Below, piece after piece: positions 4,029 to 45,446 of a stretch of DNA of 64,000 nt. The stretch is from contig NZ_JADEXU010000007.1 in NCBI RefSeq assembly GCF_015206895.1, forward strand, positions 1-64,000, read 5' to 3'. Made by a program: the position numbers and the translations under genes. The first letter of the stretch is position 1; each line of letters begins with the position of its first letter. The notes below the pieces were generated by a model. That model did no database searches. It was not told where the DNA came from and saw only the letters and a list, made by a program, of their open reading frames with translations. Source of the DNA: Nostoc sp. LEGE 12450 (GTDB lineage: Bacteria; Cyanobacteriota; Cyanobacteriia; Cyanobacteriales; Nostocaceae).

Positions 4029-4074
4029 TTATCCCCCTCTCTTTCTCTGTGTCCTCTGTGCCTCTGCGGTTATT
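4029..4074. repeat. dispersed CTCTGTG/CTCTGCGG repeat
   Basis: Imperfect copies of ctctgtg and cctctgcggtt fill the 77-nt spacer between two co-directional genes. The same motif family appears inside the MITE at 17.8-17.9 kb and in the inverted repeat at 62.25 kb. It reads open in the frame of the downstream gene, which artificially extends that ORF upstream. Confidence 0.6.
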
Positions 4075-16991: not shown

Positions 16992-17579
16992 TTACTCAGC
17001 ATTCAAGATTGGCAATTCGGTACTGTCACTGTCAAGTCTTCTATCTTTAGTTTGTGATATCACCCAGTAGCGATAATCAGTCAAAAGTTGATTTAATAAC
17101 CTTTGCTTAACCGACAGCAGTACGCTTTTGAGCAAACCATTACCAGTAGCTTCTAAAATTGGCTTAGGAGTAAAGGAAAATGGCGGTGGTAAATCCACCA
17201 GCACTTCTAAATCAGCTTTTCCTTGCAGACGAGTGCCAGTGCTAAACTCTTTGGGAGACAAATGCCCTTTTAAATTAAGGGCAAAGCGCTGGTTAATATA
17301 CTCGAAACCCAGGATTTCACAGCCTAGCGATCGCAAATAAATTATTCCATTTGATTCTGCCCAAACTCTCATGTCTACAGTCGGTTGAATACTCAATGAC
17401 ATAAAACTGAGCGGACGCATTTTCAAGCGAAATACTTCCTCAGAAAGCTGCTGAGTTCGGGTGTTGTCAGCCAAAGCCTTAACCAGACGTTGAGGCTGAC
17501 GCAAGTAGTGCTGAATGTGAATAGGCTGCTCTGGAACAGCGATTTCAACCGATTGGGAGGCAGTAAACCGGGTAGCCAT
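16992..17579 (-). CDS. DUF1997 domain-containing protein
   Basis: A 195-residue soluble protein. The sequence from residue 20 to 170 fits DUF1997: HYLRQPQRLVKAL, FRLKMRPLSFMSLSIQPTVD and FSFTPKPILEATGNGLL. This family occurs in cyanobacteria and plastids and looks like a START/SRPBCC-like fold, which is inference. The start is ATG at 17579. It converges on rnhB with an 8-nt gap. Its function is not known to me. Confidence 0.85.
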   Translation of the reverse strand: MATRFTASQSVEIAVPEQPIHIQHYLRQPQRLVKALADNTRTQQLSEEVFRLKMRPLSFMSLSIQPTVDMRVWAESNGIIYLRSLGCEILGFEYINQRFALNLKGHLSPKEFSTGTRLQGKADLEVLVDLPPPFSFTPKPILEATGNGLLKSVLLSVKQRLLNQLLTDYRYWVISQTKDRRLDSDSTELPILNAE

Positions 17580-17730: not shown

Positions 17731-17985
17731 AGATTAGGATTAGCCCTTTCAAGGTGGCTAAAAATTTTGGTCAATAAATTCCTCTTTAAACTCTGGACTC
17801 TGTGTAATCTGTGTGTCTTTTGTTAAAAAAAATGCTTTCCAACCGCAGAGACACAGAGAAGCCAGTGCGTTGGGCGGGTTCCCCGACTTGTTCGCTGAAA
17901 ACGTTCCCGCAGAGTAGCAACTGGCGCGGCGCTGAGAAAAAATAAGAGATTTTACGAGTTACCTTGAAAGGGCTAAGATTAGGAT
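17731..17985. mobile_element. MITE-like element with target-site duplications
   Basis: The element spans 17741-17975 (235 bp). Its ends are perfect 15-bp terminal inverted repeats (tagccctttcaaggt / accttgaaagggcta). It is flanked directly by identical 10-bp direct repeats, agattaggat, at 17731-17740 and 17976-17985. It has no transposase. The interior carries CTCTGTG/CCGCAGAGAC motifs and a GCCAGT...ACTGGC inner inverted repeat. It sits in the 696-nt divergent gap between the DUF1997 gene and pheA, about 290 nt before pheA. The mobilising transposase is not in this window. Confidence 0.8.
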
Positions 17986-18010
17986 TTAACTCTTGATACA
18001 AAGTAAAGAA

Positions 18011-18275: not shown

Positions 18276-19151
18276 ATGACTCTATCGATCGCACATTTAG
18301 GGCCTCCCGGCACTTACGCAGAACAAGCAGCTGTTCTTTATGTCAACTGGTTGACTAAAAGTACGGGAGATGAAGCTACCTTATCTCCCTATCCCACCAT
18401 CTCACAGTCACTCCACGCCGTTGCTGATGGTCAAGCTCACCTAGCTGTTGTGCCAGTGGAAAATTCTATTGAAGGGAGTGTTACCACAACATTGGATACA
18501 CTCTGGCAGTTAGACAGTTTGCGAATTCAGTTGGCTTTGGTATTACCCATTGTCCATACCTTAATTTCCTGCGCCTCTGGTTTAGATAAGATTAAAACTG
18601 TTTACTCTCACCCGCAAGCTTTGGCACAATGTCAGGGATGGTTAGAGCGATTTCTCCCGACTGTACAGATTATTCCCAGCAATTCTACAACCGAAGCACT
18701 ACAGCGATTGGAGCAAGAAACAACAACAGCAGCGATCGCTTCTAGTAGAGCAGCTCAACTCTACAACCTGCCGATACTTGCCACTGGTATTAACGACTAT
18801 CCAGAAAACTGTACTCGTTTTTGGGTAGTAAGTCAGGGTGAAGCAGATGCTGGATACCAGACATCAAAAGTGCCTACTAGTCACACATCGCTAGCTTTTA
18901 GTATGCCTGCCAACACACCCGGAGCATTAGTCAAACCTTTGCAAATCTTTGCTCAACTAGGAATTAACCTCAGCCGAATTGAATCTCGTCCGACGAAGCG
19001 ATCGCTAGGCGAATATTTGTTTTTCATGGATTTAGAAGCAGATGTCAAGGAAGCACAAATGCAATCTGCTTTAGCAGAATTAACTATTCACACAGAGATT
19101 TTAAAAATTCTTGGTGCTTACAATGTTTTGCCGATTGGCGCTTTTACTTGA
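18276..19151 (+). CDS. pheA: prephenate dehydratase
   Basis: A 291-residue monofunctional enzyme that converts prephenate to phenylpyruvate for phenylalanine synthesis. The catalytic TRF motif is Thr180-Arg181-Phe182. The VENSIEGSV motif is at about 61-69. A C-terminal ACT domain (about 205-280) carries ESRP at 236-239, the phenylalanine-sensing motif, so feedback inhibition is expected. No chorismate mutase domain is fused. The start is ATG at 18276. The upstream region has two strong hairpins and a MITE. Confidence 0.95.
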   Translation: MTLSIAHLGPPGTYAEQAAVLYVNWLTKSTGDEATLSPYPTISQSLHAVADGQAHLAVVPVENSIEGSVTTTLDTLWQLDSLRIQLALVLPIVHTLISCASGLDKIKTVYSHPQALAQCQGWLERFLPTVQIIPSNSTTEALQRLEQETTTAAIASSRAAQLYNLPILATGINDYPENCTRFWVVSQGEADAGYQTSKVPTSHTSLAFSMPANTPGALVKPLQIFAQLGINLSRIESRPTKRSLGEYLFFMDLEADVKEAQMQSALAELTIHTEILKILGAYNVLPIGAFT

Positions 19152-45183: not shown

Positions 45184-45446
45184 AAGTCCACTCAAGTGGA
45201 CTGAATCGATCGTTTATAGGACTTACGCACAAGTTACGGGATAACGAAATAACGTAGACTCGTAGCGGCTTGCCGAATGCTACCGCAGAAAAGCCCTTCT
45301 ATCCCTGCGGGGAAGCAAGCTACGCCCAGCGGCAACCACAGGGCGATAACACGGAGAAATGAGAGTTTGAGAGATATTTATGCGTCAGTCCTAATTTGGT
45401 CCACCCTTAGTGGACTTCAGCTATGAAACTCGGAATTCATTCCGAG
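45184..45446. mobile_element. nested palindromic element, MITE-like core 45218-45392
   Basis: Core ends aggacttacgca (45218-45229) and tgcgtcagtcct (45381-45392) are inverted repeats (11 of 12). The core is 175 bp, GC-richer than its flanks, and holds gctaccgc/gcggc motifs. Outside it lie gtccact-ca-agtggac (45186-45201) and gtccac-cctta-gtggac (45399-45415), then ctcggaat-tc-attccgag (45429-45446). There is no transposase. The rest of the 753-nt gap to remA (45447-45901) shows no gene. Confidence 0.5.

Follow-up and report, generated by a model that had tools for sequence, protein, structure and literature searches.

What is the short non-coding segment between pheA and a divergent DUF1997 gene in Nostoc sp. 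LEGE 12450, when did it arrive, and why does it stand at this site? The window, by which we mean the whole stretch of 64,000 nucleotides that was analysed, holds at this position an element of 235 bp from one terminal inverted repeat (TIR) to the other, with perfect 15-bp TIRs, a 205-bp interior between the two 15-mers and identical 10-bp flanks, as the first-pass annotation had read it from the letters. Its parts and neighbours are these:

16992 to 17579, minus strand: DUF1997 gene, divergent upstream neighbour, with 161 bp between gene start and element
17731 to 17740, plus strand: left copy of the target duplication, AGATTAGGAT, a single copy in 6 of 20 empty relatives
17741 to 17975, plus strand: MITE, 235 bp, non-coding, with no open reading frame of at least 80 amino acids within it
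17741 to 17755, plus strand: left terminal inverted repeat, TAGCCCTTTCAAGGT
17961 to 17975, minus strand: right terminal inverted repeat, the exact reverse complement of TAGCCCTTTCAAGGT
17976 to 17985, plus strand: right copy of the target duplication, AGATTAGGAT
18276 to 19151, plus strand: pheA, prephenate dehydratase with an ACT domain (Pfam), downstream neighbour

The element is short, bounded by TIRs, devoid of a transposase gene, flanked by a target duplication and present in many copies, and it belongs to the class of MITEs. It lies 300 bp from pheA, whose identity is given by a Pfam match to prephenate dehydratase (9.5e-59) plus the ACT domain. Both strands of the window copy fold better than 200 of 200 shuffled sequences (z -4.4 and -3.6), as expected from the inverted repeats. 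An Rfam search returned no match up to an E value of 0.1, a PDB sequence search a single match (E 0.29) that is unrelated by name, and a search of a plasmid collection 7 matching records, none of them covering 80% of the query.

Within the genus, 37 of 39 genomes contain the exact TIR, as against 5 of 148 order-wide, the window's own genome being among the 5. Further copies in that genome, which the first-pass annotation had proposed to look for, are plentiful: BLAST finds 29 pieces including the window copy, and the exact TIR has 10 sites as opposed to 0 for a reversed control. A lone exact family TIR lies on the window's contig beyond the window (G000:C387:72759-72773). Our census comprises 77 distinct copies with both TIRs and at most two mismatches per end, copies with worse ends being left out; since these were chosen, among the matches listed, for two near-perfect and close ends, proportions among the 77 are biased, and 4 of them represent the pheA site. 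Direct repeats of 9–12 bp flank 27 of the 77 copies, a repeat of at least 9 bp being expected under the census criteria at 0.05% of random position pairs. Another 24 lie between hexamers resembling the ends of a second family, E2 (TAGGAC on the left, GTCCTA on the right, allowing two mismatches in each; chance expectation for the pair, 0.1%). Outside these hexamers, 17 of the 24 show a 5-bp repeat, perfect in 13 and with one mismatch in 4 (1.8% expected), and 7 do not; the remaining 26 of the 77 have neither type of flank.

How old is the insertion at pheA? The site was searched in 59 genomes including the window's own, yielding at least 30 loci, 5 further matching genus genomes not being among those listed; 29 same-genus loci, own genome included, have both flanks readable (L086, which has no right flank, was left out). 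Among the matches listed, 20 of the 29 carry no insert, and 6 of those 20 spell AGATTAGGAT exactly once. The 10-bp target duplication is therefore real, as the first-pass annotation had anticipated for empty sites. The other loci comprise four copies in the same orientation, one reversed copy (G034), one left-end remnant (G001), two deletions (G027 and G006) and one different insert (G003). In the window's genome (G000), G023, G007 and G012 the element sits at the same base in the window's orientation, and the flanks of the filled-site genomes are about 78–98% identical to the window's. In phylogenetic trees, the four forward copies form one clade with the G001 remnant and the G027 deletion, with support of 100/99 for coding DNA and 100/100 for flank plus coding DNA. 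Given the shared base and the single clade, the insertion is ancestral to that Nostoc subclade, and the description of it as recent, which had been drawn from its perfect ends and identical flanking repeats, does not hold: perfect TIRs persist even in a pheA copy as old as the subclade's ancestor. A single clade of filled, remnant and deleted rows is not rejected with flank plus coding DNA (p-AU 0.26); the value of 0.001 from a coding-DNA test holding only the five filled rows together comes from an unfair test, as the remnant and deleted rows were shut out. The reversed copy in G034 may be either a second independent insertion or an inversion. A separate insertion in G007, where AGATTAAAAT stands on both sides, was considered and rejected: a 12-bp gap is common to this element and that of G012, and we take the two as one insertion. 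At this G007 locus (L062) both duplication copies carry the same changed bases, which looks like exchange between repeats. Upstream of pheA in G003 (L070), the different insert lies a few bases from the MITE site and starts with TAGGACTCCTATTTGATTTTTGAACGG.

One may ask whether a regulatory role for pheA or the DUF1997 gene has kept the element at this site. Its position between two divergent genes, beside a conserved TTGACA-containing sequence, would suit such a role, but pheA lies 300 bp away and the DUF1997 start 161 bp away, and there is no Rfam match. Moreover, the majority of relatives never had the element (20 of 29 loci empty among the matches listed), and within the clade it is reduced to a remnant in G001, gone with its surroundings in G027 and decayed in G007 and G012. 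We consider retention for regulation highly improbable.

Why, then, this site? Alignment of the 27 copies with direct repeats in one orientation gives the target N5-TAGGAC^TTACGCATTGACA, where the caret marks the insertion point. The 27 copies represent 24 insertions, with pheA counted once: 16 at an E2 end, 1 in tandem beside such a copy, pheA itself and 6 others. The 16 lie exactly 6 bp inside E2 (TAGGAC^TTACGCA), and their direct repeat is made up of the hexamer and all or most of the N5 of E2. E2 has the inverted ends TAGGACTTACGCA, with 40 exact ends in the window's genome, and its own 5-bp duplication is perfect in 6 of 8 loci, with a 4-of-5 match in one more. The window itself contains an E2-like element of 177 bp at 45217-45393 (TAGGACTTACGCA ... 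TGCGTCAGTCCTA), with no MITE in its ends and with flanking 5-mers that match in part. The remaining 8 of the 24 did not go directly into an E2 end. Among these, the weaker targets, scored over 19 bases, comprise the window copy at pheA with 6 mismatches, three sites with 8 and three with 9, levels reached by 0.017%, 0.5% and 2% of random window positions, respectively. Two or three of the eight (L098, L226) lie in tandem heptamer-like repeats, as does the intact element L313 described below, and there direct repeats mean less. The stretch of the pheA site that is compared with E2 is:

17980 to 17998, plus strand: target remainder TAGGATTTAACTCTTGATA, 13 of 19 bases identical to the E2 terminus TAGGACTTACGCATTGACA, an equally close match being found at 0.017% of random window positions

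The site is spelled exactly TAGGATTTAACTCTTGACA in G023 and two empty relatives, with 5 mismatches to the E2 end. Judged by its bases, the pheA target, TAGGAT^TTAACTCTTGACA in its nearest form, is a conserved chromosomal sequence resembling an E2 end.

A pair of near relatives, as placed by the flank plus coding DNA tree, illustrates the targeting of E2 itself. At one site G033 contains E2 alone between two CAGTT repeats (L266). At the same site in G025 (L164), two tandem MITEs stand at E2's left end, each with the N5-TAGGAC repeat, and the sequences before, between and after them read CAGTTTAGGAC, CAGTTTAGGAC and AGTTTAGGAC. The comparison of E2 alone with E2 plus tandem MITEs indicates that insertion regenerates its target. 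The pattern of a MITE end, five free bases and an E2 end occurs in 10 stretches among 84,980 species genomes, a set that perhaps leaves out the window's own genome, and all 10 are from Nostoc. Taken together, the sites occupied suggest that the MITE family prefers E2 ends or look-alike sites as its targets.

Which enzyme could move an element that encodes none? Two longer elements have the exact 15-bp ends: L119 in G012 spans 1,626 bp and contains a broken transposase, and L210 in G030 spans 2,598 bp and is broken up by another element, of which it contains two reading frames. In several one-ended copies, a transposase adjoins the TIR. Exact MITE ends go only with broken transposases, those of L119 and L210; intact frames have diverged ends. 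L313 (G072; 1,454 bp, 455 amino acids) has the TIR TAGCCCTGTCAAGGTGAC, which matches the MITE's in 14 of 15 positions, and is flanked by the 10-bp repeat CTCCTAACTC inside a tandem-like repeat. L315 (G066; 1,505 bp, 460 amino acids) has the ends CAGCCCTCTCAATATTGACA, matching at about 11 of 15 positions, and the 11-bp repeat GTTAAACTACC. The intact L316 (G067) has ends as in L315 and a 10-bp repeat, and the intact L314 (G020) shows no clear repeat, so that a 10- or 11-bp direct repeat accompanies three of the four intact full-length relatives. The full-length insertion sequence with the same TIRs that the first-pass annotation had looked to is thus represented in related genomes, exactly in L119 and L210 and at 14 of 15 positions in the intact L313, but the window's own genome yielded no such element, the L212 protein finding no transposase match there at 1e-15. 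Three matches in that genome to the transposase piece of L119 were rejected as a partner, the query stretch being one that matches many places and not the transposase core. Barring the help of a more distant transposase, the window copy is probably stranded.

The proteins of L313 and L315 match Pfam DDE_Tnp_1 (PF01609) above its cut-off, and their D(69)D(106)E spacing falls within the D(60-110)D(100-150)E of the IS4 family. The family's duplication of about one helix turn is found in the parent elements as well (10–11 bp). Both proteins contain Y(2)R(3)E, with T where K is expected, and thus depart from Y(2)R(3)E(6)K; both score below the curated cut-off of 115 bits for NCBIfam IS4_1 (L313, 96 bits, E 2.3e-27; L315, 110.4 bits, E 9.2e-32). 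The ends, TAGCCC or CAGCCC, differ from the IS4 subgroup signature -AATR--------WTW and, beginning with TAG or CAG, from the CAT of the IS231 subgroup. For IS4Sa (ends CA------T, 8–10-bp duplication), the L315 end CAGCCCTCT fits, but its 11-bp duplication does not. Because of the T in place of K and the IS4_1 scores below the cut-off, we call these elements IS4-like only and assign them to no subgroup.

We regard it as very probable that the window element is a MITE of IS4-like origin, moved in trans, with a preference for E2 ends as targets, and that its insertion at pheA took place in the ancestor of the subclade. The MITE, short and non-coding, would derive from an IS4-like insertion sequence, and an IS4-like DDE transposase supplied in trans would act on its 15-bp ends. 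Insertion would proceed through a staggered cut of about 10–12 bp, 10 at pheA, preferably at targets resembling the E2 terminus, N5-TAGGAC^TTACGCATTGACA; at pheA, a conserved chromosomal site like an E2 end would have been used in an ancestor of this Nostoc subclade. The ends, the duplication, the empty sites, the target consensus, the full-length elements with like ends and the versions of one site with E2 alone and with E2 plus MITEs can be read in the sequences compared; from these we infer that this IS4-like transposase moves the MITE, how it cuts and that the interior of E2 can be lost.

This loss concerns the hexamer-flanked copies, which resemble elements with 21-bp TIRs and 5-bp duplications. 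Could the true ends be 21 bp long (TAGGACTAGCCCTTTCAAGGT) and have moved as such with a 5-bp duplication, the 10-bp and other long repeats being secondary? The hexamers on both sides of 24 of the 77 copies, with the 5-bp repeat perfect in 13 and one mismatch away in 4, would be accounted for, as would the orthologous empty sites, which contain a single N5 in L254, L262, L263 and, with one base changed, L265. The 9–12-bp repeats of 27 copies run against it, however, as do the intact-transposase elements, which have 10–11-bp repeats and no hexamers; furthermore, the hexamers are E2's own ends, accompanied by E2's 5-bp repeat in 6 of 8 loci (7 with the 4-of-5 match). At one locus E2 itself occupies the place of the MITE: G005 has the MITE between hexamers with the N5 TTTAT (L120), and G068 has E2 there with the same N5 on both sides (L248). 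We therefore give true 21-bp ends very little credence, and for the window copy a 21-bp TIR is ruled out by the empty sites and the intact relatives. The simplest reading of these alignments would be that the MITE stands in E2's place and has inherited its hexamers and 5-bp duplication, with the G005/G068 locus as the one direct case; relatives were compared at 8 of 12 and 5 of 9 hexamer-flanked sites, and E2 was found at 1 of the 13. The direction of replacement, from E2 to MITE, follows from the MITE's preference for E2 ends, as the single case is itself not polarised. One N5 and hexamer frame surrounds a 134-bp subfamily in G008 (L251) and a 166-bp subfamily in G026 (L138) and G065 (L252), as though the MITE had come later than its frame. 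The G008 copy has an extra small insert at its very end, with CTAG on both sides.

By what route might the MITE displace the interior of E2, so that only the outer hexamers and the 5-bp duplication of E2 remain around it? Three routes could lead there: recombination of two insertions, transposase-mediated adjacent deletion, and a concerted reaction involving both ends of E2. If a MITE inserted at each E2 end and homologous recombination between the MITEs then deleted E2, only known processes would be needed. Tandem insertion at one end has been observed (L164), and the L121/L174 locus has differing N5 copies, TAGTT inside and GGAGA outside, a sign, as far as the bases tell, of exchange between copies. 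On the other hand, none of the 8 loci with both E2 ends located has MITEs at both. In addition, G065 (L269), compared with an identical MITE at an E2 end in G026 (L168), is without the 11-bp repeat on the E2 side, a gap that abuts the MITE end exactly and that MITE–MITE recombination would not produce. We put this recombination route at slightly under an even chance. We also consider it conceivable, if rather unlikely, that the IS4-like transposase joins its two ends to both ends of the resident, so that the interior is swapped and the 5-bp duplication inherited in an act of replacement and not of insertion.

How does this behavior compare with that of known elements? According to PMC2266710, IS4-family duplications are about one helix turn long, members of the IS4 subgroup have Y(2)R(3)E and 10–13-bp duplications, and some show a "spectacular apparent insertion specificity" with conserved target arms. 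PMC1626470 describes IS231 elements repeatedly found just inside the ends of class II transposons, namely IS231A in Tn4430, IS231U in TnBMB165, IS231F in TnBtoxis and IS231L in TnBt9727. The Nostoc system resembles IS231 in that an IS4-family element, here one that is only IS4-like, recurs just inside the terminal repeat of another transposon and makes a duplication of about one helix turn (PMC1626470, PMC2266710). Unlike IS231, which lies immediately ahead of the final base in the repeat of a large class II transposon, the Nostoc MITE lies 6 bp inside E2; its prey is itself MITE-like and makes 5-bp duplications, the inserted element is in most cases a MITE, and the resident can be replaced, judging by one direct case. 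With the IS4 subgroup, as described in PMC2266710, it shares the DDE transposase, Y(2)R(3)E, duplications of 10–13 bp and conserved target arms, whereas the K of YREK is T, the subgroup's end signature is missing and the target is the end of another element. Like the cyanobacterial MITEs of Anabaena sp. 90 and Anabaena PCC 7120 and like Nezha, the element is short, non-coding, structured and multicopy; in contrast to Anabaena 90, whose authors found no IS with matching ends, the Nostoc family has like-ended elements and a target rule (PMC3542288, PMC10969869). In the literature searched, with most subscription papers, ISfinder and Wolk 2010 outside its scope, there was nothing on this MITE family or its E2 preference. 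The behavior is thus a new instance of what is already known from IS231; the literature searched does not describe a prey that is MITE-like, a target that is regenerated or the replacement that we appear to see.

An ordinary-looking MITE may thus document, in its flanking bases, how one mobile family preys on a second, whose resident copy can be lost. Annotators should note that a single MITE family can seem to have TIRs of 15 bp with duplications of 9–12 bp in some copies and TIRs of 21 bp with duplications of 5 bp in others, because in the latter the outer bases belong to the resident E2. The target preference is simple enough to be tested in a laboratory strain.

The interior of the window copy is composed in part of further repeats:

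17808 to 17857, plus strand: inner palindrome with the CTCTGTG/CCGCAGAG repeat, arms at 17808-17829 and 17836-17857
17860 to 17928, plus strand: 69-bp G+C-rich palindromic repeat, absent in alignment from the orthologues in G023, G007 and G012

Small dispersed repeats have reportedly been treated by Elhai. The first-pass annotation had suggested that dispersed copies of the CTCTGTG repeat were carried by elements such as this one, which applies to a minority: 7 of 27 exact CTCTGTG/CTCTGCGG copies in the window's genome have a family TIR no more than 300 bp away, compared with 0.4% of 227 random positions, and 20 do not. The other two copies in the window, at 4053 and 62259, belong to the latter, nothing TIR-like lying within 300 bp of either. 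The CTCTGTG/CCGCAGAG palindrome is a separate dispersed repeat, mostly outside the MITE family, and some family members carry it. The window copy measures 235 bp, as against 166 bp for the G023 orthologue and 154 bp for that of G007, the excess over G023 being the 69-bp repeat, and the sequence of that repeat recurs elsewhere in the window's genome. G010 has a member of 236 bp that matches the window copy along its length at 83%; the 69-bp segment is thus shared by some further members of the family and may be either a nested insertion or an exchange with another copy.
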